Source: Nitrospiria bacterium
GTDB taxonomy: Bacteria > Nitrospirota > Nitrospiria > JACQBZ01
Assembly: GCA_035517655.1 (NCBI GenBank)
Contig: DATIYJ010000068.1
Coordinates: 1 to 49,844, forward strand
Reading direction: 5' to 3'
DNA length: 49,844 bases
This document shows, in pieces, positions 1 to 13,886 of the stretch. The position numbers and the translations under genes are program-made. The notes under the pieces were generated by a model. It ran no database searches, had not been told where the DNA came from, and saw only the letters and a program-made list of their open reading frames with translations. How positions within the stretch are numbered: position 1 is the first letter of the stretch; each line of letters begins with the position of its first letter.

Positions 1-1728
1 CTGCAGGCACCGCGCGATTTCGGGAAGTGCCTCCTTTGCATGAAGGTCCTTTAGCACGACCAGCATATTTCTGACGACATACCACTTTGGGTTCCTGAGT
101 CGTTTCACGGCCAAAGGGATCACCGCCGGTCCGCATTGGACGATCCATTCCAAAAGGCGTTTCCGTACCGACAAATTCTCTTCCGTCTCCAGAAGATCCA
201 GAAGCATGGGAATCACGTCGGCGCCGGCCAGGTCTCTCATGTGGCCGAAAAGGTCGGCGATCCGCTCGTCTCCCTGTGCATGGTAGCTCTGAAGTAGGCG
301 TGTGAGGACCTCCGGTTTAATGAAATTTTTTATTTCCTTTTGAAGAAACGAACGGCTTTCCGGATCGACCGATCCTATTTTTTGCGAAAGGAGAACCAGC
401 GTTTCCTGCAGCACGGCGTGGGTCTTATCACCCAGTCCGTCCGTCAGCAAGCGATTCATATGCCGGATCAGGGTTTGGTACTCCGGTTGAGTGTGAATGG
501 GCCCATCCAGGAGCTCAAGAATGACGAGGGCCAAGTGTTGATTGACCGCCTCCGGATCGACCGCGCTTATCTCGGGACAAGGAGAGGCTTGCTCGCCGGT
601 ATTTTTATGGGTCAGTTCCTGGTCCAGCAGGGACCGGTAAGACGAAGGATAATAGGCCCGATTCGCTCGATAGGTCAGGAGTTCCTGATACAGGTCTTGG
701 CGGTTCCCCAGCTTTGAGGCGAGCATTTCTTCGACCCGTTGGTTTTCAGCCGAGAGAACGGTAAATTTATTCAGCAGACTCAACATCGGAGCGGAGATGT
801 CCTGATTCGATAATTGGATCTGGTTCAACATTTCCAAGAGCGCGGGTTCGGGTAAGAAGTCCATCAACTCTTCCAACGGGGCTTCGCCGTTCTGCGTCTC
901 CTCCACCGAGATACGAAAAATCTGTTCTCTCACATCGGGCTCAAGGTTGGACAGCAACGTGGATAACTCTTGATTGAGATGGGTCCGTTGCTCGGCCGTG
1001 AGGACGTGATTTTCGGCCTGCTTGTTCAGGTATTTCACAATGGTCCGTTCATAACTTTGTGATCCTTCGCCGTGTGCGCGGCAGAGCCGATTGATGAGTT
1101 CCGCAAGATGGTCCGGATCGGCTTCTTCCTCCGAATCGGTGTTGAGGATCTGCTGGTCGGCCTCGGGGTTTTCCTCCATTAATTGTCTTACCAGACCGCG
1201 CCACACTTCTTTTCCCTCTTGCTCTGTTTTTTCTTGCTTGGCCTGATCGCCGGTTTCCTTGTGGCCTTTTAGAGCCTCGCCGAAGCGGATCAATTTTACC
1301 TGGATGGACGGGGCTTCCTTATGCAACTGGGACACCATCCGTTCCCGTTGCTCCGGGACCTGTCCACGACCTTCCACAAGCAGTCTCAAAAATTGGAGGA
1401 TCTCGTCTTTCGTGAGCCCCTTGAAAAAGGTTATCCCGGCCAGTCCAAACTGATTCAATCCCCGGGCCAGTTCATGGATCACTGGATTGCGGGTGGAGAG
1501 CGTGCTGCCCTGATAGAGAAGTTCGTGACGGGTGATACCAAACGTCACGACATCGACAAATTCGAAGAGAGCGTTGAAATGCTTCTCGAGGTTTTCTAAA
1601 AGACCGGGAACGATCGTATGTGAGAAGGAGTAGAGCGCCAGCTTTCGAATGGCCACCTGGAGCTCCATCAGGACGTTCACGATGTAGCGAGGATCGATGA
1701 CCGGCACCGATCGGGAGGATTCTTCCAA
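1..1728 (-). CDS. HEAT-repeat protein, partial (C-terminus beyond left edge)
   Basis: An uninterrupted reading frame of 576 codons runs from a TTG at 1728 to base 1, so the gene is cut by the window edge. An in-frame TAA lies just upstream of the TTG, and an AAGGAAG ribosome site sits 7 nt before it, which fixes the start. The N-terminal ~120 residues form a helical domain (DPRYIVNVLMEL...FFKGLTKDEILQFLRLL). A long charged middle follows, and the last ~100 visible residues are clear HEAT-type repeats (VIPMLLDLLETEENLSVRKRL, then VIPLAVKRLRNPKWYVVRNML). No signal peptide, so probably cytoplasmic. The N-terminal domain matches the gene starting at 49324 in spacing and key residues, so the two are probable paralogs. 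HEAT arrays usually bind proteins; the partner is unknown. Confidence 0.85.
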   Translation of the reverse strand, partial: MEESSRSVPVIDPRYIVNVLMELQVAIRKLALYSFSHTIVPGLLENLEKHFNALFEFVDVVTFGITRHELLYQGSTLSTRNPVIHELARGLNQFGLAGITFFKGLTKDEILQFLRLLVEGRGQVPEQRERMVSQLHKEAPSIQVKLIRFGEALKGHKETGDQAKQEKTEQEGKEVWRGLVRQLMEENPEADQQILNTDSEEEADPDHLAELINRLCRAHGEGSQSYERTIVKYLNKQAENHVLTAEQRTHLNQELSTLLSNLEPDVREQIFRISVEETQNGEAPLEELMDFLPEPALLEMLNQIQLSNQDISAPMLSLLNKFTVLSAENQRVEEMLASKLGNRQDLYQELLTYRANRAYYPSSYRSLLDQELTHKNTGEQASPCPEISAVDPEAVNQHLALVILELLDGPIHTQPEYQTLIRHMNRLLTDGLGDKTHAVLQETLVLLSQKIGSVDPESRSFLQKEIKNFIKPEVLTRLLQSYHAQGDERIADLFGHMRDLAGADVIPMLLDLLETEENLSVRKRLLEWIVQCGPAVIPLAVKRLRNPKWYVVRNMLVVLKDLHAKEALPEIARCLQ

Positions 1729-1773
1729 GGGCGTACTTCCTTAATTTATAGGTTTATCTTGAATCTATGAATA

Positions 1774-1801
1774 AGGATAGCGGAAATACAGGTACAGTCA
1801 A
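1774..1801 (-). promoter_or_regulatory. sigma70-type promoter of the HEAT-repeat gene
   Basis: On the minus strand TTGACT (1801-1796), a 16-nt spacer and TATCCT (1779-1774) precede the TTG start at 1728 by about 45 nt. That leaves a leader of about 40 nt containing the AAGGAAG ribosome site. Confidence 0.5.
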
Positions 1802-1941
1802 CTGGGACCATGTCTCAAGAATCAGTCAAAATGCGGCATTAGGAGATTCAGGCAATGGAATTTTTCGGAGACGGAGTGCCGAATTGACCGGAATGGACAT
1901 GCGCCGTGACTTGGCCCCGGGAAAGCGAGGCGGCGGTTAGA

Positions 1942-4350
1942 TCAATGCGCTGGGGCCGACCCTGTATCTGTACTGTGTCTGCCGCCTGTCCGGTCATCGT
2001 TTTTACGGCCCGGAAGTACGGGTTCTAATATTTTAAACGGGGCTCCGAGCGTCCGTTTCATGAGACCGGTCAGTTCTTTAGCGACCGCGTCGGGCGAAAC
2101 GGCCGTTACTTCCGGTTGGTCGATGGAGCCTGTGATGCGAATCGGGATACTGATCAACGAGCCGGCCAGGATGTCTTTGAGCAATGGAATTCTCTTGATC
2201 ACGACATCGGCCGTAGTGAACGGAGCGGCCAGCACTGTGAGATCCAGCGTCCTGTCTGATAGTCGAACGGAACCCCGTGCTGCGAGATTGACCACCGGAC
2301 TGACGAAGACGGCTTCGTCGAATGACAGAGTGCCCTTCTTTAGGGTCCCGCGAATCGCCAGCGACTTGTACGGGATGCCGTCGCGTTCCGGGCCGGGGAA
2401 TTTTCCTCGCAGGAGATCGGTGACGTTGAGGTACGTTAAGATCCGCACGACGACCGAATCCTGAAAGACGCGTCCATCCTTGGCCTTGATGGCTACGATT
2501 CCGTCGAGCGTGTCGAGCAGTGTCTGACCGAATCCCGATGCGCTCAGGGCGCCCGAAAGATTGAAGGTTCCCGCGATTCGGTGCTGCACGATCCCGAAGC
2601 ATGCCAGCGTCGATTCCAGGTTCTGACCGTCGGCCGACGGCTTGATTGCGATCCGCGTTTCGGTGGCCGCGATCGTAATCAATCCCGGAAGATTCACGCC
2701 GCAGACCACCGCTTCATGCAGGGCGATGCGGAGGGGAGTGGATCCCACCGAGATCTCCAAGCGGACCGGGGCCGCGGTCCAGTGTCCGATCGTAAAGGAA
2801 GAGGCCGCCAGGAGGACGGTCGCTCGGGGAAGGATCGGCTCCCGCACGGACGGCGGCGACCCGTTACGGTTGGCGTCCGACGCGAACAGCCGGGCCAATG
2901 GCTCCCAATCCAATCCATCGGACGTCAGATTCAACAGCCATTGGTCGGGGGCGGCTGTGATCTGGCCGCGCACGGTGTGCGGCGTCGCGCTCAGCCTAAC
3001 GACAACTGGATCCAGTGTCAGCGTTTTGTCTTCTGCTCGCAGGATGACATGGTCGATCAGCACAGGCACCCGAGTTTGAAACGGAAAAACAAGCCGCTCG
3101 CCCTCCAATCGGCCCTGCGCGGTGGAATCCCTGGGATGATCAAGCACGACTCGGGTTCGGAAATCACCTTTCAGCCAGCCGAACTCGACGCCCCGTCGTT
3201 CGAATAGACGACCCAGGGTCGCTTGCGCGAGATTTCCGGTAAAGGACAGGTCCAATACTTTGTGCCGAAAACTCAACGCGAGAAGCGCCTGCGAATCGTT
3301 GTCCCGCACACGCAACCCGTGGACGGTGAAATAATCCGGACCTCGTTCGAGGTTGAATGAAAGGGAAACATCATGCTGCAGGGAAGCCGAACCTTTGATC
3401 CGCGTTGATCCGCCGTATTGCCACAGCAGCCGGACCTGCGAGAGGAACACGGGGGCATGAATCACCCATTCCGCAGGCAGAGCAGCCGCGGTCCGAATCC
3501 ATTGCACCGTGTCGTAACCCACGGTACCGGCCATGATAACCTCGGCCGCGGGTTCCGCCGACAGGCCGTCCTGGATTCGGCCGGAAACGTTGACGGCCGC
3601 GTCCAACATCCGCACCTGACTGTCTGAAAACGATATCATCCGCGGGCGAGCATCGAAGGACCCGATTCGAATTCGAACCGGGCCGGGACCTGTCGCGTCA
3701 TCGGTAAGAACCGCCTCAACACTACCGGTGATCCGAAACGCCCGAGCCGTTTCGAACGCGTCCGAGCCCCCGGCGGGCGTTTCAATGGGCAAAAACACAA
3801 TCCGGCCATCGACGTCCCGAAGCGTTAAGAGAATCTGGCGGTTCTGGTTTATGGTAAACCTACCGTGCTGGATTTGAATCTCCAGGCTCGGAATTTCGGA
3901 AGCCACCACGCCCAGCAGGGTCGCGATGGATTGTTCCTCCGGGGCGCCGGCAGGTGTTTCGGTTCCGTTCGGGGATGGCCTCGGGGGTTTCAGGGCCAGC
4001 GTGATCTCGGGGCGGTCGAGCCGGACATTCTCGACCCGAGGTTGTCCTCTGAGCAACGGCCACAGCTCGAAATTAATGTCGATGGATCTCAACGTTGCGG
4101 AGAAGCTCCCGGGAATCGAAATCGATGGAGCCCGGATGACGACCCGCGGCCGTGGAAAGATCGAGAGTCGTACATCCTTATAATGCAGTTCACCGCCGAG
4201 TTTCTGCGATACCGTTGTTTCGATGTGGTTTTTTATTGCGTCTTGATTGATGATTCTCGTCGCAAAGAACTGCAGGGCCGCCAAGAGTAGCGGGAACAGG
4301 ATGAGGGAAATCAAAATCCAGAGGGCGATCCGTTTGAATGATCGACTCAC
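1942..4350 (-). CDS. AsmA family protein
   Basis: An 802-residue protein with one N-terminal membrane segment (residues ~8-30, IALWILISLILFPLLLAALQFF) followed by a long, beta-rich periplasmic part. The N-terminal block (LGGELHYKDVRLSIFPRPRVVI...FELWPLLRGQPRVENVRLDRPEI) and the C-terminal AsmA-like block (LDTLDGIVAIKAKDGRV..., then LAARGSVRLSDRTLDLTVLAAP...IPIRITGSIDQPEV) are both recognisable. AsmA-like proteins (AsmA, TamB, YhdP) span the periplasm as hydrophobic grooves and are linked to lipid transport to the outer membrane. Which subfamily this belongs to cannot be told by eye. No clear Shine-Dalgarno precedes the ATG at 4350. The start lies about 90 bp from the edge of the integrated element, so its original upstream region may have been altered by integration. 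Confidence 0.85.
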   Translation of the reverse strand: MSRSFKRIALWILISLILFPLLLAALQFFATRIINQDAIKNHIETTVSQKLGGELHYKDVRLSIFPRPRVVIRAPSISIPGSFSATLRSIDINFELWPLLRGQPRVENVRLDRPEITLALKPPRPSPNGTETPAGAPEEQSIATLLGVVASEIPSLEIQIQHGRFTINQNRQILLTLRDVDGRIVFLPIETPAGGSDAFETARAFRITGSVEAVLTDDATGPGPVRIRIGSFDARPRMISFSDSQVRMLDAAVNVSGRIQDGLSAEPAAEVIMAGTVGYDTVQWIRTAAALPAEWVIHAPVFLSQVRLLWQYGGSTRIKGSASLQHDVSLSFNLERGPDYFTVHGLRVRDNDSQALLALSFRHKVLDLSFTGNLAQATLGRLFERRGVEFGWLKGDFRTRVVLDHPRDSTAQGRLEGERLVFPFQTRVPVLIDHVILRAEDKTLTLDPVVVRLSATPHTVRGQITAAPDQWLLNLTSDGLDWEPLARLFASDANRNGSPPSVREPILPRATVLLAASSFTIGHWTAAPVRLEISVGSTPLRIALHEAVVCGVNLPGLITIAATETRIAIKPSADGQNLESTLACFGIVQHRIAGTFNLSGALSASGFGQTLLDTLDGIVAIKAKDGRVFQDSVVVRILTYLNVTDLLRGKFPGPERDGIPYKSLAIRGTLKKGTLSFDEAVFVSPVVNLAARGSVRLSDRTLDLTVLAAPFTTADVVIKRIPLLKDILAGSLISIPIRITGSIDQPEVTAVSPDAVAKELTGLMKRTLGAPFKILEPVLPGRKNDDRTGGRHSTDTGSAPAH

Positions 4351-4439
4351 GTCAACCCGATTTTGTCATGGGGGAGATCGACCTGGTCTTGTCCGGACCT
4401 CAGTGGATTACCCTGGCCCGGCGATCCGCGGGGTCGGGA

Positions 4440-4491
4440 TTGGGACCGTGAGTGAAGATAAGGTTGTTCGGGTGGAAATCTCACCACCGGC
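4440..4491 (+). pseudogene. Remnant of a second integrase gene tail, outside attL
   Basis: The 48 bases left of the 56-bp repeat align without gaps to the 48 bases left of its right-hand copy (4444-4491 against 10247-10294), with about 28 identities by hand count. Read in the integrase frame, the left copy gives TVSEDKVVRVEISPPAEKNW beside TVTDGKAEEVESSQPIEKNW in the intact integrase. The GACCGTGAG at 4444 sits at the same 48-bp distance from the core as the arm repeat at 10247. This is what the right end of a tandemly inserted, now deleted, related element would leave. Upstream of 4440 no further similarity to the integrase is visible. Confidence 0.55.
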
Positions 4492-4547
4492 TGAAAAGAA
4501 TTGGCTGGGGGACGAGGGGTCGAACCTCGATAGACAGAGTCAGAGTC
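4492..4547. repeat. attL: 56-bp direct repeat of the tRNA-Gln 3' half
   Basis: Identical over 56 bp to 10295-10350. It contains tRNA-Gln from the anticodon stem to the CCA end plus 10 bp of 3' flank. The sequence diverges on both sides (C against T at either border). It is a displaced tRNA fragment, not a functional tRNA, because the D-arm and the 5' acceptor strand are missing. Confidence 0.9.
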
Positions 4548-4665
4548 CCTCAAAGCCTCATAATGAATAAAAACGATTGAGTGTGATTGTATGCGATGCT
4601 TGCTTGAGGTGTCAAGGAGTTAGACCTTGCCCATTGACGACGGAGCGCGATTCTGTTATACCGGC

Positions 4666-4709
4666 AACCGTGACCAAAACCGTGACAGAACCGTGACTAA
4701 AACCGTGAC
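4666..4709 (+). repeat. Left arm-type integrase sites: four AACCGTGAC repeats
   Basis: AACCGTGAC occurs at 4666, 4678, 4689 and 4701, followed by a partial copy at 4713. The 11-12 bp period places all copies on one face of the helix. The same 9-mer occurs twice near the right end (10235 and 10247). Helically phased short repeats inside each end of an element are typical arm-binding sites of lambda-type integrases. They lie about 120 bp inside attL and upstream of the toxin-antitoxin pair, so they may also affect its transcription. Confidence 0.6.
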
Positions 4710-4780
4710 CAAAACCGGAACTGAAAACTTGACCTGGTGTGTCGTAAGTGTTACACTGAATTAAATGGAGGTTGCCAAAC

Positions 4781-5005
4781 ATGCCCACTAAGAATCCCCG
4801 GGTCAACGTCGTGCTGGAGAAGCCGCTCTATCGCCGGATTGAGCATCTGGCCAAACGGGATGGGATTTCCCTTTCCTTAAAGGTGCGGGATCTGGTCAAA
4901 GAGGCACTGGAGATCGAAGAGGATCTGGCCTTGTCCGTCCTGGCGGAGAAGCGGGAGAAGACCTTCCGCCGATCCACCGCGCTCAAGCACGATGAGGTCT
5001 GGTAG
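4781..5005 (+). CDS. RelB/RHH-type antitoxin
   Basis: A 74-residue protein beginning MPTKNPRVNVVLEKPLYRRI, a beta strand followed by helices (YRRIEHLAKRDGISLSLKVRDLVKEALE) as in ribbon-helix-helix antitoxins. The acidic C-terminal half (EIEEDLALSVLAEKREKTFRR) would wrap the toxin. The ATG at 4781 has TGGAGG 9 nt upstream; the in-frame TTG at 4772 directly abuts that site and is not used here. The toxin gene follows after 2 nt. Antitoxins of this kind usually repress their own operon, and the repeats at 4666-4709 lie where an operator could be. Confidence 0.75.
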   Translation: MPTKNPRVNVVLEKPLYRRIEHLAKRDGISLSLKVRDLVKEALEIEEDLALSVLAEKREKTFRRSTALKHDEVW

Positions 5006-5007
5006 AG

Positions 5008-5283
5008 GTGGCCTTCACCCTTCTCTACCATGCCGAGGTCAAAGAAGACACACGCCAGCTTGATGAACGGCTGAAAAAGCGCATCAAGACGGCTATCGAG
5101 AATCGCCTTACGACGGCTCCCCACCAATACGGAGAACCTCTGAGAAAGACCCTCAAAGGGTACTGGAAACTTCGAGTCGGTGATTATCGAGTCGTCTACA
5201 AGATCATGGGAAATGAGGTCTGGATTTTAGGTATCAGCCACCGCAAGGAAGTTTATGAGAAGATCGAAAAGAGGGTTGGATGA
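5008..5283 (+). CDS. RelE/ParE-family toxin
   Basis: A 91-residue protein with the compact RelE/ParE fold signature: FTLLYHAEVKEDTRQL at the start, the helix KKRIKTAIENRL, GEPLRKTLKGYWKLRVGDYRVVYKI and the closing strand WILGISHRKEVYEKI. The pattern L-x-G-x-W-K-L-R-V-G-D-Y-R-V is diagnostic. RelE members cleave mRNA on the ribosome and ParE members poison gyrase; the sequence alone does not decide. The start is a GTG at 5008, 2 nt after the antitoxin stop, indicating translational coupling. As cargo next to attL it could stabilise the element. Confidence 0.85.
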   Translation: MAFTLLYHAEVKEDTRQLDERLKKRIKTAIENRLTTAPHQYGEPLRKTLKGYWKLRVGDYRVVYKIMGNEVWILGISHRKEVYEKIEKRVG

Positions 5284-5480
5284 CGGACAAGATGAGCCGC
5301 GACGAAAAGAAAGCTGGTCTTAGATCAACCGTCCATCCATTTCGAACTTGTAGCGAAGTAGACAAGGGATTATTGATTCTCAACGATGACGGCGATATAC
5401 TCCTTACCGAACCCGCGCCGGAGCCAACTGCCTTTGCGCGCGGACCGCATCGGCCAGAAAGGAGCTCTCTCTATGCGTAA
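5280..5480 (+). CDS. Small ORF overlapping the toxin stop, doubtful
   Basis: A 66-codon frame opens with an ATG overlapping the toxin TGA (ATGA). The product (MTDKMSRDEKKAGLRSTVHP...) matches nothing I recognise, and its end overlaps the start of the lipoprotein gene. The overlap is the only argument for translation; it may be chance. Confidence 0.2.
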   Translation: MTDKMSRDEKKAGLRSTVHPFRTCSEVDKGLLILNDDGDILLTEPAPEPTAFARGPHRPERSSLYA

Positions 5481-5802
5481 TCTTGCTGTCCTGGTTGCCT
5501 TATTTTTAGTATCTTGTGCCGGTGCAGGTGGACTCAAACCATCTATCTATACTGCACCTCCAAGTTACCTGGAATCTTTTCCTCTCGGCTCGGTTACCGA
5601 GACAGAAATGACATTAAAGTCAGGCCCTCCTGATAAGATAATTGAGATTGAAGGGAAACGTGCCGTTGTTTACCAATTAGGTGAAGGACATGGGTTGAGG
5701 ACGTTTACTTATATCATTGAGGGGGGTGTTATCACTGACGTCCTTTACAATGATAACGGACCCTACAACGGCTCTACGGCTAAACAGATGCAGAAACGAT
5801 AG
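5473..5802 (+). CDS. Small lipoprotein, BamE/SmpA-like in size
   Basis: A 109-residue protein with a lipoprotein signal peptide MRNLAVLVALFLVSC (lipobox L-V-S-C, lipidated Cys15). The mature part contains PLGSVTETEMTLKSGPPDKIIEIEGKRAVVYQL and a strand pair ending GGVITDVLYNDNGPY, reminiscent of the small BamE/SmpA alpha-beta fold, in which a turn of the form G-x-T-x-x-x-V-x-x-x-x-G-x-P-x-x is usual. The ATG at 5473 has AAGGAG 8 nt upstream and is preferred to the in-frame ATG at 5386, which lacks a signal peptide. It is cargo of the element on the same strand as the toxin-antitoxin pair. Confidence 0.7.
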   Translation: MRNLAVLVALFLVSCAGAGGLKPSIYTAPPSYLESFPLGSVTETEMTLKSGPPDKIIEIEGKRAVVYQLGEGHGLRTFTYIIEGGVITDVLYNDNGPYNGSTAKQMQKR

Positions 5803-5810
5803 AAAAAATT

Positions 5811-5824
5811 CAATTCATGAATTG
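5811..5824. repeat. 14-bp perfect palindrome between convergent genes
   Basis: CAATTCATGAATTG lies 8 bp after the lipoprotein stop and before the 3' end of the TerS-like gene. It is too AT-rich and short to be a good intrinsic terminator, so a protein-binding site is possible. Confidence 0.3.
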
Positions 5825-5871
5825 TGGCCTTACCAGCTCCGAAAATAATAATCGTGGCCTCGTTGAACTTC

Positions 5872-6291
5872 CTAAAGGCTCCGGCCGGTGGTGGGGTGTA
5901 CTTGGTGAGTCGCGGTGTCTAATCCAAGATCAGACGCTTTGATAGCACCGCACTCGATGAGGATGAGTGCAATTTGGCGGAGCTCCTCAATTCGCTCTTG
6001 GATGGTGCGTTTGTCCACCGGAGGGGGAGGTGGGAGAGTAAGACCGCCGGAGTGTTCAACCGACTCTTTAGGCCTCCCCCAGATCCGGTCCGCTGCAAAG
6101 CGCAGCGCCGCCCCCGGATCTTCTTTGCGGAGTTTCTCGAAGTCATCGATGGCCGCCCCGGTTTCTTCCAAATAAGACCGGAGATAGCTCTTGAGCTTCT
6201 TGGCCTCTGGGGAGTCAGGAGGGCGTCCTGAGCTTTTAGGGGCTTCGCCCTTCTTCCAGTCCCGACCGCCTGTTTTCATTCCCTTTGCCAT
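5872..6291 (-). CDS. TerS/DUF5681-like phage protein
   Basis: A 139-residue protein. Its N-terminus GGRDWKKGEAPKSSGRPPDSPEAKKL matches the W-K-K-G...G-R-P pattern of DUF5681 proteins. The helical centre DFEKLRKEDPGAALRFAADRIWGRPKESVEHSGG resembles small terminase subunit-like proteins (DR-x-x-G-R-P-K-x-x-V-E). A proline run (PPPPPP) links to a C-terminal helix. Small terminase subunits recognise DNA for packaging; phage satellites use their own copy to divert helper packaging. That role is inference. No good ribosome site precedes the ATG at 6291, and a second ATG at 6279 is possible. Confidence 0.5.
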   Translation of the reverse strand: MAKGMKTGGRDWKKGEAPKSSGRPPDSPEAKKLKSYLRSYLEETGAAIDDFEKLRKEDPGAALRFAADRIWGRPKESVEHSGGLTLPPPPPVDKRTIQERIEELRQIALILIECGAIKASDLGLDTATHQVHPTTGRSL

Positions 6292-6333
6292 CGGCTTTTA
6301 TCGGCTTTTCTTCCGTCTGTTGTGAACCCCCGG

Positions 6334-6633
6334 TCAACATGTTCCGTAACGTCTCATCACTTCCGGCAGTGCATTTAGCTCCCGTAAGGTTTCCGCGATT
6401 GACTGTCCACCAGCCCACCAGTGAAAGCGGAGATCGGCATCAAATGGAATCACAAGATCATTGTTAGCCCTCAAGAATGGCATGGGGTGTTTAAGCGGTT
6501 GGATCAAGCCCAACCGAACAAATTCCATCGCCTTGGTCTCATCTTTGGGAATGAAAACGTCCCCTGGCCTAAATACCTTCGGCCCGGCGGGTGTCTTGAT
6601 CTTCAAGGTCCGAACGGCCATGAATTTGACCAT
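6334..6633 (-). CDS. Hypothetical phage-type protein
   Basis: A 99-residue protein. The N-terminal half (MAVRTLKIKTPAGPKVFRPGDVFIPKDETKAMEFVRLGLIQPL) looks like a small beta barrel. The C-terminal half (NNDLVIPFDADLRFHWWAGGQSIAETLREL) has the pattern LVIPFD-x-D-x-x-x-HWW-x-GGQS-x-x-ET, which I recall from uncharacterised phage and plasmid proteins near replication genes. The ATG at 6633 follows GGAGG at 9 nt spacing, and a second ATG at 6621 lacks a site. The function is unknown. Confidence 0.6.
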   Translation of the reverse strand: MVKFMAVRTLKIKTPAGPKVFRPGDVFIPKDETKAMEFVRLGLIQPLKHPMPFLRANNDLVIPFDADLRFHWWAGGQSIAETLRELNALPEVMRRYGTC

Positions 6634-6679
6634 CTTCTAAAACCTCCAAGTTCGTGTCTGTTAGATCTACCAGCTCGCT

Positions 6680-6795
6680 TTCGGGTTGTTTACCTTGTCC
6701 TACGCCCTGGGTAGGGGACAGGTTAAACAAGGTCCGGTTCGGGTTGTTTACCTTGTCCTACACCCTGGGTAGGGGACAGGTTAAACAAGGTCCGG
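6680..6795. repeat. Tandem 58-bp repeat with internal hairpin
   Basis: Two copies, 6680-6737 and 6738-6795, differ at one base (G at 6704, A at 6762). Each contains a long imperfect inverted repeat: TTGTTTACCTTGTCC on one side and GGACAGGTTAAACAA on the other, around CCTAC...GTAGG. The right-hand copy encodes the C-terminus of the RepA-like protein and contains its stop; the left-hand copy lies just beyond it. Candidate roles are a replication or packaging site, or a transcription stop (no T-run follows). Confidence 0.85.
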
Positions 6796-7811
6796 TAGAA
6801 CTTAGAACCCCGTTCGGCGTTGGATTTCCAAAAACCTCTTTCTTCTCCCTCTCGGAGAAGACCGAGAATAGCGTTACGGCCCAGACCGGTTTTATCCTTG
6901 ACCCGTTGAACTACATCCGACTGATTAGGCGTATTCCCGGTTTGTTCCATCTCCCGGATGATCTGCTGGACTTCGCTATATCTTGCGTTGTTTTCTTCCC
7001 GCTGGGAATTTTTGAGGTCCTGAGTGATGTCAGTAAATATCGGGCCGTCAGCCACCTTGAGAGTGAGTTTAAAATCCGAAAGCCACCGATGCTTTGTGGA
7101 CCGGATTTCCAAGATGGTGGTTTCCCCTTCCCGTTTCTTTTCCATGCTCAGAACAACGTCAACTCCTGCTCCAAGTTCGGACGACCCTCGGTAGTCCTTT
7201 GCGGTCTCCGCTTTGCCTCCGTGATGAAGAACCAAGACAGAAGCCCCGTGTTTCGTTAACGCCCGTAACTGCCCGGTGATTTCGGCCATATCTGCGGACG
7301 AGTTCTCGTCTCTTCCCTCCATAAACCGCTTGAGGGTATCAATCACAATCAGGTTAAATTCTTTAGAGGCCAATTCCATGAAAGGTCCGTTCAAAGCGAG
7401 AGGGGGTGGATCATGCCACCAACACCAGACATGGAGATTCTCGGACGACCCGATTGACCTAAGCCGCAAAGGTAACAGGTCCGGCGGGTTCTCAGCATCA
7501 ATGTATAAGACCGCTCCGGTTTCCGTCTCCCTGTTTAAAAATGGTTTTCCTTGCGCCACAGCAAAAGCGATGTTCAGGCTCAGGAACGTTTTATAAACTC
7601 CTTCACGAGCGCAGAGCATGACCACCGACGCCGTGGGGATTAGGCCGTGAACCTTCCAGGGGGTTTCATCTGGGGGCCTGAGTTTGTGAGATGGAACCCA
7701 AGGGACTGTTAGATTTCCCACGTCTTGAGGCTTTACGTGGTCCAAATACGTCTGCCGCTTTGCAGGTTTCTCCGGAAATAATCGCTCTGCGACTTCGCGC
7801 CGGTCGGTCAT
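6723..7811 (-). CDS. RepA-like AAA ATPase (AAA_25/RecA fold)
   Basis: A 362-residue protein. After a ~50-residue lead comes PWKVHGLIPTASVVMLCAREGVYKTFLSLNIAFAVAQG (Walker A region), GAVLYIDAENP (arm strand), FNLIVIDTLKRFM (Walker B), VLVLHHGGKAETAKDYRGSSELGAGVDVVL and a C-terminal winged-helix-like part (SEVQQIIREMEQTGNTPNQSDVVQRVKDKTGLG). This order is that of the hexameric RepA replicative-helicase family of plasmids and phage islands. The Walker A loop reads R-E-G-V-Y-K-T where G-x-x-G-x-G-K-T/S is usual, so its glycines are reduced although the Lys-Thr is kept. It overlaps the upstream gene by ATGA. The last ~16 residues are encoded by the 58-bp repeat. Confidence 0.75.
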   Translation of the reverse strand: MTDRREVAERLFPEKPAKRQTYLDHVKPQDVGNLTVPWVPSHKLRPPDETPWKVHGLIPTASVVMLCAREGVYKTFLSLNIAFAVAQGKPFLNRETETGAVLYIDAENPPDLLPLRLRSIGSSENLHVWCWWHDPPPLALNGPFMELASKEFNLIVIDTLKRFMEGRDENSSADMAEITGQLRALTKHGASVLVLHHGGKAETAKDYRGSSELGAGVDVVLSMEKKREGETTILEIRSTKHRWLSDFKLTLKVADGPIFTDITQDLKNSQREENNARYSEVQQIIREMEQTGNTPNQSDVVQRVKDKTGLGRNAILGLLREGEERGFWKSNAERGSKFYRTLFNLSPTQGVGQGKQPEPDLV

Positions 7812-8011
7812 CGAAGGGCCTCCTCGATCACTTCCAGCCGTTCTAACAACCAGTGATGGGGCCTGTCTTCAAGAATCAAGCGCATCCGTAGGCGCGCTCT
7901 TTCCCGCTCAAGCTCAGCGCGGGAGAGCGCAGCGAGATCCCGGTGCGTCCATTTGATCCAGTCCTCCTCGGACCGCAACGGGTTGGGGATCTTGTAGATC
8001 TCACCGATCAT
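7808..8011 (-). CDS. Small hypothetical protein in the excisionase-rep operon
   Basis: A 67-residue, strongly charged protein with a predicted two-helix C-terminus (SRAELERERARLRMRLILEDRPHHWLLERLEVIEEALR). It overlaps both neighbours by ATGA, so the three genes 8211 to 6723 are translationally coupled. I do not recognise the family. Confidence 0.6.
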   Translation of the reverse strand: MIGEIYKIPNPLRSEEDWIKWTHRDLAALSRAELERERARLRMRLILEDRPHHWLLERLEVIEEALR

Positions 8012-8211
8012 TTCCTATCCCCGGTCAATGCGGGGCGGTAGCCCTCTTTAACCAGCCGCTCTATCTCAGACAGGGGAATACGCACTGAGCGGCCGATTTT
8101 GACGAAGGCCACACGCCTCAGAAAAATGTCTTTCCTCCACGTAGCCGCCTTCCGGCCCGTCACCTCTTCAGCCTGAAAAACAGTCAACAACTTCTCATCA
8201 CTCTTAATCAT
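8008..8211 (-). CDS. Excisionase-like HTH protein (MerR/HTH_17 type)
   Basis: A 67-residue protein with a single winged helix-turn-helix of the excisionase/AlpA type: LLTVFQAEEVTGRKAATWRKDIFLRRVAFVKIGRSVRIPLSEIERLVKEG. The K-I-G-R-S-V-R-I-P...I-x-x-L-V-x-x-G ending is characteristic of HTH_17. Such proteins bend attachment-site DNA for excision or activate element genes. It is the first gene of the minus-strand operon and starts just below the divergent promoter region at 8236-8283. Confidence 0.75.
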   Translation of the reverse strand: MIKSDEKLLTVFQAEEVTGRKAATWRKDIFLRRVAFVKIGRSVRIPLSEIERLVKEGYRPALTGDRK

Positions 8212-8235
8212 CGCCGACCTCGCTTCAGTTTTTTC

Positions 8236-8283
8236 TTGATTTTTCCTAAAGGTGATCTTATACTATTTTTTGTTACCTGTCAA
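8236..8283. promoter_or_regulatory. Overlapping divergent promoters of the mobile element
   Basis: Plus strand: TTGATT (8236-8241), 17-nt spacer, TATACT (8259-8264), towards the zinc-finger and integrase genes. Minus strand: TTGACA (8283-8278), 15-nt spacer, TATAAG (8262-8257), towards the excisionase-rep operon. The two -10 boxes overlap, so polymerase binding in one direction should exclude the other. The minus-strand spacer is short, so that promoter is less certain. Confidence 0.5.
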
Positions 8284-8353
8284 AACTACATTATTAGTTT
8301 CATCGACGGTGGATGGAAGGCAAATTAAACCTTACTTGGTAACGGAGATTTTC

Positions 8354-9160
8354 ATGGCCCGGAAGAAAAAACCTGACAGGAGGCGTTTAGGGGCTCAGTA
8401 CCGGCTTAGCACTCCGTCGGTAGAGCTGCTGCGGTGTCTGAACGACGGGATAAGGTTTATTCATAAGGAAGACCCGCGACAGATTAAGCTAGTGACGGAT
8501 GGTAGATCTCGGGCTTATCTTCATGTCCCGGCGTACCAACCCTCCGGGACGGAGGAGAAACCCTTTCGGGAGGCGGTGAAGAAGATTGCTACGGCCCTGC
8601 GGCAAATTACAAGCCCCTCAGGCGTGCATTCTTTTTATGCTCTAATTAACCAGCATCTCCGGGACGCGGTTTTTCGGCTTGAGCCTCAGGCGGTCATGAG
8701 TGAGGAATTGCGTAAGAGGGTTCGTACCAAAGAGGGTCCTCTCGAAGATTATTTTCTTAAGCGGGGTTATACCGAAGAGAATTCTCGCAACAAGATGGTG
8801 GCTCTTCTCCGGAAGGGGGTCTATACCGAGGCGACCCTCCATTTCGCCCACAAAAGTTTCAGGAGCTTTCCGAGGCTTGAATGGGTCCCCGAGTTCAACC
8901 CGGACAGACCCGTCGGGTATCTCTGGGGATTGGCGGCGTGTCTGCTTCAGGACATATCCCAGCACCCAGAACGACTCAAATCATGCCAGCATTCGATTCG
9001 GGGAAAGCCTTGCTCCCGTCTCTTTTGGGATGAGGCCAAGAACAAGAGCCGGAAATTTTGTTACGACCCGGAGTGTTTGAAGGATTACAAGAGAGAGAAG
9101 GTCGAGCGATCAAGGAAGAAACCACACAAGGAGACTCAACATGGCAAGAGCAGGCGGTAA
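8354..9160 (+). CDS. CGNR-type zinc-finger protein upstream of integrase
   Basis: A 268-residue protein starting MARKKKPDRRRLGAQYRL. The ATG at 8354 has GGAG upstream; the longer frame from 8252 would begin before the promoter -10 box and is rejected. The N-terminal ~200 residues are unfamiliar. The C-terminus (RLKSCQHSIRGKPCSRLFWDEAKNKSRKFCYDPECLKDYKREK) follows the CGNR zinc-finger layout: Cys...Cys, then F-x-D-x-x-K-N-x-S-R-x-x-C, then C-x-x-x-x-K. CGNR fingers occur in transcription regulators, so DNA binding is likely. The gene overlaps the integrase start by 20 bp in another frame, suggesting coupled expression. Confidence 0.65.
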   Translation: MARKKKPDRRRLGAQYRLSTPSVELLRCLNDGIRFIHKEDPRQIKLVTDGRSRAYLHVPAYQPSGTEEKPFREAVKKIATALRQITSPSGVHSFYALINQHLRDAVFRLEPQAVMSEELRKRVRTKEGPLEDYFLKRGYTEENSRNKMVALLRKGVYTEATLHFAHKSFRSFPRLEWVPEFNPDRPVGYLWGLAACLLQDISQHPERLKSCQHSIRGKPCSRLFWDEAKNKSRKFCYDPECLKDYKREKVERSRKKPHKETQHGKSRR

Positions 9161-10367
9161 GGATCGGGGGATCTTGGAATGGCCCAAGGGGTCTGGTAAA
9201 TGGTGGGTAAGGATCTTCGTCAATGGCCGAGAGAAACGCTACAGGGCGGACAATAAGACTCAGGCCAAGGCTCTCTACGGTCGGCTGAGGGCCGAGATCC
9301 GTGAGGAAAGGTTCTTCCCGGAGAAGTTCTCTACGACAAAAGAAATCACCCTTCGGGCATGGATTGAACGATACCTCGAAGGTTCTACCAACCGAAGCCT
9401 TGTCAACGAAAAGCGATACGGCCGGTTCTGGTCCTTGCTCCTGGGTAAACGCACCCTGTCAAGCATCACGACAGATGATCTCCGGCGGATTCAAGCCAAG
9501 ATGAAAACCAGAGAATGGGTGAAGGTCAAGATGGCAGGCAAGGAGAAAGTTAAAATCGTCAAGAGGCATGCGCCAGCCACTATCAACCGTCAATTTTCAT
9601 TCCTTCGTCATGTGCTTCAGATTGCCGTGAGGGATGGGAAGATAGGCCGGAATCCCGTCAGCGGGGTGAAGTTCTTCCCGGAGTCGAACCGGACGCGGTT
9701 TCTCTCGGATGAGGAGGTTAAGAGCTTGAAGGCCGTCATGAACCCGGACAACTTCAAACGGGTTGCGTTTGCGATCAATACCGGGCTTCGACGGGAAGAA
9801 CAGTTCTCACTTCGATGGGATCAGGTCGGCTGGGAGAGCCGGACACTCACGATCCCGCTTCCCAAAGGCGGCAAGACCCGGCATGTTCCTTTGAGCGATG
9901 CTGCGCTTTCAATTCTCCGGTCCCTTGATACCCTGGACTCTCCGTGGGTCTTTCCGAGAGAGAGCAACCGGCTTTTACCCGGCTCTGCCGATTCTTTCGT
10001 CAATCGGAAGTATGCACCGGCTCTACGCAAAGCGGGGATCAAGGGGGCTTGCTGGCACACCTTGAGGCACACAGCGGCCAGTCGCCTTGTCATGGCTGGT
10101 GTGGACCTGTACGCGGTCAAGGAGATCCTCGGTCACCGGGACATAAAGACCACCCTTCGTTATGTCCACCTTGCGCCGGGATACCTCCATCAAGCGGTCA
10201 ATCGAATAGGGGCCGGGATGGAAAATCAGGATGGAACCGTGACTAAAACCGTGACTGACGGAAAGGCCGAGGAAGTTGAATCTTCACAACCCATTGAAAA
10301 GAATTGGCTGGGGGACGAGGGGTCGAACCTCGATAGACAGAGTCAGAGTCTGTCGTCCTGCCATTAG
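9141..10367 (+). CDS. Tyrosine recombinase / site-specific integrase
   Basis: A 408-residue integrase. Residues 1-60 form an AP2-like arm-binding domain (W-W-V-R-I-F-V-N-G-R-E-K-R-Y), ~70-170 a SAM-like core-binding domain, ~185-345 the catalytic domain. Catalytic residues visible: Arg217 (NTGLRREEQ), Lys near 242-245 (PKGGKTRHVPL), His306 and Arg309 (HTLRHTAASR), His332 (GHRDIKTTLRY), nucleophile Tyr341. AAGGAG lies 7 nt before the ATG. The C-terminal ~45 residues are unusual: TVTKTVT is encoded by the arm repeats, EKNWLGDEGSNLDRQSQS by the attachment repeat, and the stop lies inside the tRNA-Gln gene on the opposite strand. Confidence 0.95.
   Translation: MARAGGKDRGILEWPKGSGKWWVRIFVNGREKRYRADNKTQAKALYGRLRAEIREERFFPEKFSTTKEITLRAWIERYLEGSTNRSLVNEKRYGRFWSLLLGKRTLSSITTDDLRRIQAKMKTREWVKVKMAGKEKVKIVKRHAPATINRQFSFLRHVLQIAVRDGKIGRNPVSGVKFFPESNRTRFLSDEEVKSLKAVMNPDNFKRVAFAINTGLRREEQFSLRWDQVGWESRTLTIPLPKGGKTRHVPLSDAALSILRSLDTLDSPWVFPRESNRLLPGSADSFVNRKYAPALRKAGIKGACWHTLRHTAASRLVMAGVDLYAVKEILGHRDIKTTLRYVHLAPGYLHQAVNRIGAGMENQDGTVTKTVTDGKAEEVESSQPIEKNWLGDEGSNLDRQSQSLSSCH
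10235..10255 (+). repeat. Right arm-type integrase sites: two AACCGTGAC repeats
   Basis: AACCGTGAC at 10235 and 10247, 12 bp apart and in the same orientation as the four left-end copies. The last copy ends 39 bp before the attachment core. They lie inside the integrase coding region and encode part of its tail. Confidence 0.6.
10295..10350. repeat. attR: 56-bp direct repeat within tRNA-Gln
   Basis: Identical to 4492-4547. It extends from 10 bp beyond the CCA end to base 29 of the tRNA, so recombination within it regenerates a complete tRNA gene. Crossovers near the anticodon or T-loop are usual for tRNA-targeting tyrosine integrases. Confidence 0.9.
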
Positions 10368-10378
10368 ACGATCCCCCA
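10305..10378 (-). tRNA. tRNA-Gln (anticodon CUG)
   Basis: A 74-nt cloverleaf with encoded CCA. Acceptor strands TGGGGGA and TCCCCCA pair over 7 bp, followed by discriminator G and CCA. The D-arm is GTCTAATGGCAGGAC. Anticodon stem ACAGA/TCTGT surrounds loop CTCTGAC, giving anticodon CUG, which reads CAG. The T-arm is CGAGG TTCGACC CCTCG. The U1-A72 pair is a known tRNA-Gln identity feature. It lies 44 bp downstream of gltX on the same strand and is the integration target of the element. Confidence 0.95.
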
Positions 10379-10392
10379 ACCGTCTTACCTTA

Positions 10393-10398
10393 ATTATA
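10393..10398 (-). promoter_or_regulatory. Possible -10 box of tRNA-Gln
   Basis: TATAAT on the minus strand ends 14 bp before the tRNA 5' end. No good -35 hexamer is present at 16-18 bp, so transcription from gltX may also supply the tRNA. Confidence 0.3.
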
Positions 10399-10422
10399 AT
10401 AGAAATGGCAAAAATACGGGCT

Positions 10423-11856
10423 TCATTTTGAAGCATCGGGCGGGATCATGTCAATCGCTTTCTTGAGACGTTTGAGAGTGGTGTTTTTCCCGAGTATCTC
10501 CATCACCTCGTAAATTCCGGGACTGACGGTCTGGCCGGTCAGGGCCACGCGGACGGGCTGGGCCAGTTGGGCCAGCTTCAGTCCTTTCTGGTCCAGCAGT
10601 TCTTTAAAGGGTTTTTCCAACTCCGGCGCGGTGAAGGCCGTCACGGCCTCGAGCCGGTTCACGAGGTCGGTCAAAACCGGACGGATGTCCGGCGTTAAAA
10701 ATTTTGCCCGGGCCAGTTCATCAAAAGGTATCTCCTCTTTCAGGAAATACGCCGTTCCCTTCGCCAGCTCGATCAGCGTGCGCGCGCGCGATTTGACCGC
10801 GGTGACGACCTGATCCAATACGCGTTCCTCGATCGTTTCCACTGAAAGCCCTTGCCCTGACAGAAACGGTTTGAGCAGACTGGCCAGCCGCCGGCCGTCG
10901 GCCTGATGGATATAATGGCCGTTCAGCCAGAGCAGTTTTTCCGGATTGAAAACGGCCGGAGAAGAGACGACCTTTTCCAGGGAAAAATTTTCGATTAATT
11001 CCTCGCGGCTGAACACCTCCTGATCACCGTGCGACCAGCCCAGCCGCGCGAGATAATTGATGAGCGCTTCCGGGAGATAGCCCTGGTCATGATATTCCGT
11101 AACCGAGGTTGCGCCGTGACGTTTGGAGAGGCGGCTCTTATCCGGACCGAGGATCATCGACAGATGCGCGAATTTCGGCAGGGAATACCCCAGTGCATGA
11201 TAGATCTGGATCTGGCGCGGCGTGTTGTTGAGGTGATCGTCCCCCCGGATCACGTGCGTGATTTCCATCAACGTATCATCCACCACGACGCCGAAGTTGT
11301 AAGTCGGAACGCCGTCGGAGCGGAGCATGATCAGGTCGTCCATCTGCGCGTTGTCGAATTGAACGCGGCCCTTGACGAGGTCTTCCACAACGGTTTGTCC
11401 GGTTTGCGGGGCCTTAAAGCGGATCGCGGCCGGGAGGCCCGGAGGCGGGCCCTTGCGATCCCTGCACCGTCCGTCATAACGCGGAATGAGCTTCTTGGCC
11501 TGTGCTTCCTTCCGACGCGCTTCCAACTCCTCCGGCGTGCAATAGCAAAGATAGGCCTTGCCCTCTTTCAGGAGTCGTTCGGCATGCTCTTTATAGAGGG
11601 GAAGCCGGTCCATCTGCCGGATCGGGCCTTCATCCCAGTCCAGTCCCAGCCAGCGCATGCCGTCGAGAATCGCCTGGATGGATTCTTCCGTCGATCGCGA
11701 ACGGTCGGTGTCTTCGATCCGAAGAATCAACGTTCCCTTGTTGTGCCGCGCGAACAGCCAGTTGAAGAGCGCGGTGCGGACACCGCCGATATGGAGGTAG
11801 CCGGTCGGGCTGGGCGCAAACCGGACGCGGACTTTTTCGTTTTCCGTGATCGTCAT
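10423..11856 (-). CDS. gltX: Glutamyl-tRNA synthetase
   Basis: A 477-residue class I synthetase. PSPTGYLHIGGVRTALFNWLFAR contains the HIGH-type signature and DKSRLSKRHG the KMSKR-type signature. DDTLMEITHVIRGDDHLNNTPRQIQIYHALG is the usual tRNA-binding and active-site stretch. The start MTITENEKVRVRFAPSPTG at 11856 fits the family; the upstream in-frame extension to 12006 is of non-family composition. It attaches Glu to tRNA-Glu. In organisms lacking GlnRS it also charges tRNA-Gln for later GatCAB amidation; the tRNA-Gln gene 44 bp downstream on the same strand makes this plausible, but no glnS or gat genes are in view to test it. Confidence 0.95.
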   Translation of the reverse strand: MTITENEKVRVRFAPSPTGYLHIGGVRTALFNWLFARHNKGTLILRIEDTDRSRSTEESIQAILDGMRWLGLDWDEGPIRQMDRLPLYKEHAERLLKEGKAYLCYCTPEELEARRKEAQAKKLIPRYDGRCRDRKGPPPGLPAAIRFKAPQTGQTVVEDLVKGRVQFDNAQMDDLIMLRSDGVPTYNFGVVVDDTLMEITHVIRGDDHLNNTPRQIQIYHALGYSLPKFAHLSMILGPDKSRLSKRHGATSVTEYHDQGYLPEALINYLARLGWSHGDQEVFSREELIENFSLEKVVSSPAVFNPEKLLWLNGHYIHQADGRRLASLLKPFLSGQGLSVETIEERVLDQVVTAVKSRARTLIELAKGTAYFLKEEIPFDELARAKFLTPDIRPVLTDLVNRLEAVTAFTAPELEKPFKELLDQKGLKLAQLAQPVRVALTGQTVSPGIYEVMEILGKNTTLKRLKKAIDMIPPDASK

Positions 11857-11958
11857 ACGCCGGATTATGGCATGGTCGCTGGGATAAAGTAAAGATGAGC
11901 TGTGGCTCCGGACGATCCCGGGCCCGGTATTCGATGCGCGCGTCGCACAACTTGCACC

Positions 11959-11988
11959 TTGACAAGGTTCGACATTTCTGGTTAGATA
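11959..11988 (+). promoter_or_regulatory. sigma70-type promoter of the atp F0 operon
   Basis: TTGACA at 11959-11964 and TTAGAT at 11982-11987 (17-nt spacer) or TAGATA at 11983-11988 (18-nt spacer). The atpZ ATG follows about 28 nt after the expected start point. Confidence 0.6.
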
Positions 11989-12022
11989 ACAACTTTGTTT
12001 GCCCACGTTCGGTGGGGAAGCT

Positions 12023-12253
12023 ATGGCGGATCCGCAGGATCCATTTCGTCAGGGATTGTCCTTTGCGGCCCGGATCGGCGTCGAGTTGGTTGTCTCGACG
12101 GTGGTGGGCGCTTCTCTGGGGTACCTGTTGGACGCCTGGTTGGGAACGCGCCCCTGGATCATGGTTGTGGGTGTCTTCCTCGGGGCGGCGGCGGGGTTCC
12201 GCAGCATTTATCGAATGGCCACGACCGGCGATCGATCCGGAGATATGAAATAA
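12023..12253 (+). CDS. atpZ: AtpZ/AtpI family F0 accessory protein
   Basis: A 76-residue protein with two membrane segments (FAARIGVELVVSTVVGASLGYLLDAWLG and PWIMVVGVFLGAAAGFRSIYRM) joined by a short loop, the size and pattern of AtpZ/AtpI. These small proteins help c-ring assembly or act as Mg/Ca channels with the ATP synthase. The ATG at 12023 follows GGGGAAG; the longer frame from 11999 adds no conserved residues. It heads the F0 operon, 14 bp before atpB. Confidence 0.8.
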   Translation: MADPQDPFRQGLSFAARIGVELVVSTVVGASLGYLLDAWLGTRPWIMVVGVFLGAAAGFRSIYRMATTGDRSGDMK

Positions 12254-12267
12254 CGTTAGGCTGAACC

Positions 12268-13122
12268 ATGGAAAATCCGCTTGATCATTTTGTACTCCAC
12301 CCCTTGATCCCGATCCATCTCTTCGGGTTCGATCTCTCGATCAACCAGGCCGTGGTGATGATGTGGGTCGTGGTGGCGGCCGTTTTTCTTTTCTTCCAGA
12401 CGGCCGTTCGTTCCCGTCAATTCGTGCCCACGAAAGTTCAGGGCCTGGCGGAGATGAGCGTGGAGTTCCTGCGCGGTCTTGTTTTGGAAAATATGGGCGA
12501 GCAGGGGATGCGCTTCTTCCCGTTCATCGTGACGCTGTTCTTCTTTATCCTGTTCGCCAATCTGTTGGGACTGATTCCGGGCACTTATACGATTACCAGC
12601 CAGATCATGGTGACGGCGTTATTTGCGATCGTGGTCTACATCACCAGCTTGGTTGTGGGATTCATGGTACACGGCCTTCATTTTTTCAAGATCCTGGTGC
12701 CGCCCGGCACGCCGGGCTGGCTTCTCCCGTTGATGTTACCGATCGAGGTGGTAAGCCAACTGGCCCGGCCCTTGACTTTGGCCGTCCGGCTCTTTGCCAA
12801 CATGACGGCGGGGCATACGATTCTCATTGTACTTTTTGGGATGGTAGCCTCCATGAGTTTCGGGATCGGCTGGCTCCCCGTGGCTATGGCTATCGCAATT
12901 CTCATACTTTCCAAAAACATGGCACCAAAACAAAAAGTGATAACCTTGCTTGTTGGGTCGCTACTCACTATCGTATTGTCGATCTATTTCGGGAGCGGTT
13001 GGTTGCCTTTTATCGCTGCCGGTTTGGTCTACGCTCTTGAAGTGTTCATCGCGTTCATCCAGGCATATATTTTTACGATCTTGGCCACCGTGTATCTCGG
13101 CGATGCCATTAAACTTCACTGA
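12268..13122 (+). CDS. atpB: F0F1 ATP synthase subunit a
   Basis: A 284-residue polytopic membrane protein. The hallmark helix RPLTLAVRLFANMTAGHTIL contains the essential arginine (LAVR) of the proton path, and the last helix FIAFIQAYIFTILATVYLGDAI is typical. The N-terminus PLDHFVLHPLIPI is usual for subunit a. It forms the stator half-channels against the c-ring. Confidence 0.95.
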   Translation: MENPLDHFVLHPLIPIHLFGFDLSINQAVVMMWVVVAAVFLFFQTAVRSRQFVPTKVQGLAEMSVEFLRGLVLENMGEQGMRFFPFIVTLFFFILFANLLGLIPGTYTITSQIMVTALFAIVVYITSLVVGFMVHGLHFFKILVPPGTPGWLLPLMLPIEVVSQLARPLTLAVRLFANMTAGHTILIVLFGMVASMSFGIGWLPVAMAIAILILSKNMAPKQKVITLLVGSLLTIVLSIYFGSGWLPFIAAGLVYALEVFIAFIQAYIFTILATVYLGDAIKLH

Positions 13123-13142
13123 TTGAAAGGAGAGAAAATATC

Positions 13143-13373
13143 ATGGATGCAAACGCAGCAGCGTTGTTGGGAATGGGATTGGCCGCGGCCGGATTCGGCG
13201 GCGCGGGGGTCGGTATCGGGTACATCTTCGGTAAAATGATCGAGGCCGTGGCCCGGCAGCCCGAGGCCGAGGGCAAGGTCGGAAAATATATGTGGATCGG
13301 CTTCGCGCTGGTCGAGGCGATCGCGCTTTACGGTCTAGTGGTGGCCTTCATCATCTTAGGCTTGAGGAAATAA
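13143..13373 (+). CDS. atpE: F0F1 ATP synthase subunit c
   Basis: A 76-residue hairpin of two membrane helices. Helix 1 is glycine-rich (LGMGLAAAGFGGAGVGIGYIFG), the loop is ARQPEAEGK (conserved R-Q-P), and helix 2 carries the ion-binding glutamate in GFALVEAIALYGLVVAFII. The glutamate is followed by Ala, and helix 1 lacks the Gln ligand of sodium enzymes, so a proton-driven ring is expected. GAAAGGAGAGAA precedes the ATG. The gene lies 20 bp after atpB. Confidence 0.95.
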   Translation: MDANAAALLGMGLAAAGFGGAGVGIGYIFGKMIEAVARQPEAEGKVGKYMWIGFALVEAIALYGLVVAFIILGLRK

Positions 13374-13378
13374 GAGCC

Positions 13379-13882
13379 ATGCCGCAGTTTGACACGCATT
13401 TTCTGTCTTCCCTGCTTTTCTGGTCGGTGGTTTCCTTCGGGATCCTTCTTTTTCTGCTCCGGCGCTACGCGCTTCCCGAAATCGTTGAGATGCTGGAGAT
13501 GCGCGAGAAGAAAATCAAGGACAGCCTGGAGCAGGCCGAACGGCTCAAGCAGGAGGCTCAACAACTCCTCCAGCAGTACGAGGCCAAGCTAAAATCCGTT
13601 CATGCGGAGGGCCGGGAAATCCTGGAAACGGCCCGAAAGCAGGCCCAGCAGCAACTGGAGGAAAATGAACAACGGGTGGAGCAGGAAACCCGTCGGATGC
13701 TGGCCGAGGCCCGGTCCGAGATTCAACGGGAACAACAACAGGCCGTCCAGGAAATTCAGCGCACCGCGGTGGATCTGACTTTACTGGCGGCCGAAAAGGT
13801 CTTGGCCCGCAGTCTGACCGATGCGGACCACCGGCGGCTGGTCGAGGAGGCCTTGCGGGAAATCGCCCAGTCGTCGAAATGA
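13379..13882 (+). CDS. atpF: F0F1 ATP synthase subunit b
   Basis: A 167-residue protein with one N-terminal membrane helix (FLSSLLFWSVVSFGILLFLLRRYALP) followed by a long coiled coil rich in Glu, Gln, Lys and Ala, as in the b-subunit peripheral stalk. The ATG at 13379 lies 5 bp after the atpE stop; the frame extending back to 13292 is the shadow of atpE. The gene is followed by a convergent gene after 4 bp, so atpHAGDC are not here. Confidence 0.93.
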   Translation: MPQFDTHFLSSLLFWSVVSFGILLFLLRRYALPEIVEMLEMREKKIKDSLEQAERLKQEAQQLLQQYEAKLKSVHAEGREILETARKQAQQQLEENEQRVEQETRRMLAEARSEIQREQQQAVQEIQRTAVDLTLLAAEKVLARSLTDADHRRLVEEALREIAQSSK

Positions 13883-13886
13883 CAAT

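Follow-up and report, generated by a model that had tools for sequence, protein, structure and literature searches.

A 47-bp integrase-like tail outside attL points to a second, related element at the tRNA-Gln gene of a Nitrospiria bacterium

The window, the whole stretch of 49,844 bp that was analysed, is one complete contig (C68) of a 2.65-Mb Nitrospiria genome in 71 contigs. At its tRNA-Gln gene lies an integrase-bearing element between direct repeats. A perfect 56-bp repeat (4492-4547 and 10295-10350, offset 5803) spans the tRNA from the anticodon stem-loop to 9 bp beyond its 3' end, and the tail of the integrase runs through attR into tRNA-Gln. The features of the locus are the following.

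1942-4350, minus strand: AsmA-family gene adjoining the footprint, not syntenic with tRNA-Gln in sister genome G002
4445-4491, plus strand: the footprint, very probably the diverged C-terminal tail (P-arm end) of the integrase of a second element, in the GTVSEDKVVRVEISPPA frame
4445-4452, plus strand: ACCGTGAG, putative arm-type site at -57 from the core, in the same place as the ACCGTGAC at 10248-10255
4492-4547, plus strand: attL core, a 56-bp copy of the tRNA-Gln 3' half and 9 bp downstream, with the GGGGTCG T-loop variant
4548-10350: resident element of about 5.8 kb, with att pair and integrase
4667, 4679, 4690 and 4702 (4667-4709), plus strand: four ACCGTGAC repeats, putative left-arm sites, at +165, +177, +188 and +200 inside attL
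9141-10367, plus strand: tyrosine integrase of the resident element (Phage_integrase, PF00589, 5.5e-26)
10236-10255, plus strand: two ACCGTGAC repeats in the integrase tail, at -69 and -57, encoding TVTKTVT
10295-10350, plus strand: attR core, exact repeat of the attL core
10305-10378, minus strand: tRNA-Gln (CTG), identified by ARAGORN, the target gene
10423-12006: gltX-like gene (class I glutamyl/glutaminyl-tRNA synthetase family), beyond tRNA-Gln

The resident integrase belongs to a family with relatives in 68 of the 270 genomes of the class, many of them at tRNA-Gln and tRNA-Arg with tails that read into the tRNA, and the layout of the element recurs in G121, G100, G351 and G135. As is general for integrases that target tRNA genes, crossover would take place at the anticodon-stem-loop end of the core, and the resident element is assumed to have provided the 3' half of tRNA-Gln. 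The T-loop reads GGATTCG in G002, G003, G005 and G006, and among these sequences GGGGTCG occurs only in the two window copies. This difference fits a 3' half brought in by an element; a change of the host tRNA before insertion is the alternative. The cargo of the resident element comprises an RHH-like protein with a ParE-type toxin, an AAA_25 helicase/primase-like protein, a small HTH protein and a protein with a sub-threshold match to the CGNR zinc finger. At 6669-6784 a 58-bp unit stands twice, side by side, with 90% identity.

Eight copies of ACCGTGAC are present in the window, and six of the eight fall within the two arms of the resident element. The spacing is about 12 bp, both in the integrase tail and again at the other end of the element. 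Related elements carry the repeats at +164/+176 or +188 and at -80/-92 or -81/-93, and the repeat in the tail is found in many related integrases, including those at tRNA-Gln and tRNA-Arg. From this arrangement we infer that the repeats are arm-type integrase sites, which suggests that such sites are double-coded in the integrase protein.

Directly outside attL, positions 4445-4491 match the integrase tail before attR (10248-10294) at 28 of 47 positions, ungapped and in a fixed register. The sequence-only reading had described about 28 ungapped matches over 48 bp from position 4440; the count was confirmed, but the maximal extension of the similarity is exactly 47 bp from 4445. In the same register, 4351-4444 shows 22 matches in 94 positions, the level of chance. 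Counted over both strands, the window contains 99,594 47-mers, for which the expectation is 11.8 +/- 3.0 matches; the next best of them scores 25 or 26, depending on which copy serves as query. The significance calculation that had been proposed for the alignment came out strongly, as none of 200,000 mononucleotide shuffles was as good and the maximum was 25, likewise the maximum of 50,000 dinucleotide shuffles.

The translation originally given for the footprint, TVSEDKVVRVEISPPAEKNW, is correct and lies in the integrase frame, with 13, 8 and 7 matches at integrase codon positions 1, 2 and 3; the peptide read from it as the tail of the lost integrase is GTVSEDKVVRVEISPPAEKNW. Compared with the family tails at the protein level alone, this peptide is only weakly similar (p about 0.03), and a profile HMM did not set the footprint frame apart from shuffles. 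The footprint and the resident integrase tail both have an ACCGTGA(G/C) repeat at exactly 57 bp from the core. The resident integrase has a tail that carries ACCGTGAC and reads into the tRNA 3' end; the footprint holds one near-copy of the repeat, without the catalytic part. A match of at least 6 of 8 to the repeat at -57 was found in none of 42 other tRNA-Gln flanks. Thus the frame, the 28 matches and the position of ACCGTGAG bear out the proposal that the flank is a diverged integrase tail. To the left of 4445, where the frame reads RFCHGGDRPGLVRTSVD and recalls the catalytic-tyrosine region RYAHLAPGHLRDAVN, an extension of the homology is no more than a candidate (p 0.02-0.04 at the protein and 0.037 at the DNA level, without HMM support).

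The flanks of other tRNA-Gln sites served as controls. When 42 tRNA-Gln-type flanks of the class were aligned on the tRNA, they matched at 11.8 of 47 positions on average (sd 2.4, maximum 17), and the footprint was the best of the 43 in the same register. A comparison with att regions of related elements had also been suggested. Five such elements at tRNA-Gln have att pairs whose cores of 45-54 bp stop in the same region of the tRNA. Compared with the sequence that precedes the attR of the same element, the outer flanks score 13 (G295), 10 (G135), 17 (G121), 15 (G100) and 14 (G351) matches in 47 positions. These values are at chance, so a clean single insertion does not yield the likeness seen in the window. 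By eye, the outer flanks of G121 and G351 resemble a gene end that elsewhere in the class is also found downstream of tRNA-Gln.

It is therefore very likely that 4445-4491 is the tail of a second, related element that lay in tandem at tRNA-Gln and has since been mostly deleted. The sequence, its frame and register, the position of the repeat and the clean controls are observed, as is the lack of any further part of a second integrase of the resident family: the other matches in the genome are 28-36% identical and cover parts of the protein only. The insertions, the crossover position and the deletion are inferred. Two related elements, whose tyrosine integrases would have their crossover in the anticodon stem-loop of tRNA-Gln(CTG), may have inserted at one tRNA and come to lie in tandem, each supplying a replacement tRNA 3' half and bringing its own integrase tail against the tRNA. 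The tRNA-proximal element (4548-10350) would have stayed whole. Of the distal one, the deletion would have spared only the final 47 bp of the integrase gene, including one arm-type repeat, and a tRNA 3' fragment that the resident element would now use as its attL.

What lies immediately beyond the distal att copy, at 4445-4491, resembles the integrase tail expected of a second element, with controls at chance. A third copy of the core should mark the opposite boundary of the lost element, but two copies were found in the genome and no third. Its absence is expected if the deletion removed that end, and the tandem is thus deduced from one end only; together with the lack of a second integrase of the family it indicates that the second element has lost its far end. 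The order of the insertions cannot be read from the map, which would look the same whether the later element entered the tRNA itself or the displaced 3' fragment. Our guess is that the distal element is the older; its decay favours this, as does the fact that the intact tRNA offers the full target. Several points count against the tandem reading: the shortness of the footprint, 47 bp only, the weak similarity at the protein level, the missing third core copy, and the lack of an intact tandem pair or a closer relative of the tail in the genomes searched.

An intact carrier of the footprint tail was not found in viral contigs, searched with the peptide and two DNA patterns; the phage and plasmid records among the matches listed were about 30-32% identical. 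In the genome contigs one distant relative was found, at tRNA-Lys, and no closer relative in the genomes searched. An intact tandem pair at tRNA-Gln, which the sequence-only reading had proposed to seek in sister genomes, was likewise not found in the genomes searched.

The first alternative, which we consider improbable, is that 4445-4491 is native DNA downstream of tRNA-Gln and that the match arose by chance or through capture of host sequence in the attP of the element, in which case the homology of attP and attB would merely reach past the tRNA. The DNA downstream of tRNA-Gln in sister G002 is unrelated to the footprint (13 of 47), and native occurrence of 4440-4491 at an uninterrupted site, named beforehand as the decisive counter-observation, was not seen there. 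G002 is the only sister with a usable tRNA-Gln site and is a different species, from which the lineage of the window genome (G000) could differ; moreover, the outer flank of G295 also reads TTGAAAAGTAATTGG, close to the 9 bp beside the tRNA in the window. Yet 28 of 47 was never reached by shuffles or by the 42 other flanks, and the frame and arm-repeat position are those of an integrase tail, with a repeat common to integrases at other tRNAs. The proposals of a second related element in tandem and of a tRNA site used at least twice by related integrases thus hold against chance, sister DNA, the 42 flanks, the five att pairs and the arm-repeat position.

An assembly misjoin at the 56-bp repeat, in which a contig end with another integrase tail and tRNA was fused with the left side of the resident element, is very improbable. 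In its favour, the window makes up one entire contig out of 71 and the join would fall on a short repeat. Against it, only two copies of the core were found in the assembly, from which the genuine neighbours of both halves would then have to be absent; moreover, a misjoin would still leave a real second, related integrase tail at tRNA-Gln. Duplication of one element in tandem, with decay of one copy, is likewise very improbable. It would explain the identity of the cores at 56 of 56 positions, but right beside them stand 19 differences in 47 bases, which are not to be expected if an identical copy decayed.

The claim that all but about 50 bp of the older element was lost is likely for the integrase; that the element was the older and that the loss was total are not established. 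The AsmA gene is out of synteny and, like other material, is potential cargo of the lost element. AsmA was matched in only two of seven genomes of the order, and its homologue in G002 lies on another contig with 46% identity; either the lost element or a rearrangement may have brought the gene to its present place. A pgm-malQ-pgi-gnd-pgl block (names assigned by eye from translations) comes after tRNA-Gln in G002. The G001 genome gave no match to tRNA-Gln, and its pgm contig starts just upstream of pgm; on C19 (L092) the gene at window 1-1728 has a homologue, with 79% DNA identity up to window 1844, that comes after a pgm-pgi-gnd-pgl block. In the window only the resident element, the footprint and AsmA separate tRNA-Gln from that gene. 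The pgm-pgi-gnd-pgl block of the sisters (G001 C19; G002 C25, L033) is absent from window 1-4350, and AsmA and the element stand in its place. The pgm and gnd homologues of the window genome are on other contigs, with 65% and 57% identity to G002, against 88% and 84% between G001 and G002. Either the deletion that removed the second element also took the pgm block, or the block entered the sister lineage. On the other side, about 5 kb lie between gltX and tRNA-Gln in G002 (L033:3090-8271), with lipoproteins, a sensor kinase and response regulators by eye; in the window the two genes adjoin.

The element in G295 suggests that loss of an integrase with survival of its last ~50 bp occurs elsewhere at the tRNA-Gln site. 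On contig C35 (L126), at about 1783-14161, a 12.3-kb region has both cores beside tRNA-Gln and keeps the left-arm ACCGTGAC repeats; of the integrase only the tail EDSSQSIDNKKESNWLGDEGSN is left, directly behind a transposase fragment (HTH_Tnp_1, 3.6e-9), and no other match to the resident integrase was found in the element. Like the footprint, it keeps a related integrase tail at tRNA-Gln without any other integrase match; unlike in the lost element, the rest (12.3 kb) and both cores remain and the tail adjoins a transposase fragment. In G003 (L034:7295-7861) another, unlike reading frame, truncated where the contig stops, enters the same tRNA-Gln. By eye it had been taken for a serine recombinase, a reading that was dropped after Pfam returned nothing and PHROGs a weak integrase match only (phrog_95, 0.0034); it is suggestive of a possible second recombinase type at tRNA-Gln.

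Tandem accretion of ICEs and IMEs with decayed elements (CIMEs) has been described (PMC5704250). A CIME lacks an integrase and keeps both attL and attR; the lost element is represented by a terminal tail and one core copy, its far att copy was not found in the genome, and it could not be mobile as a unit, so it is not classed as a CIME. The Islander database (PMC4383910) catalogues tandem islands at one tRNA gene, with 125 tandems of two or more among 3919 islands, which share with the window the same type of target and displaced 3' fragments. Islander counts an array member only if it has both a tDNA fragment and an integrase gene, and a lost element without integrase would go uncounted. There is a very slight probability that the footprint, with its one arm repeat, and the perfect core still act as an att half-site for the resident integrase; if so, the adjacent chromosomal DNA (AsmA and beyond) would be movable with the element. 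The window is a fresh instance of well-documented tandem accretion with decay, notable only for its small remnant, and its impact on general understanding is modest because both processes are already established. It illustrates that the outer flank of attL can reveal a vanished occupant of a tRNA site from ~50 bp, without integrase gene or far att. Such stubs escape island finders that depend on an integrase, and repeated use of tRNA sites may be undercounted.
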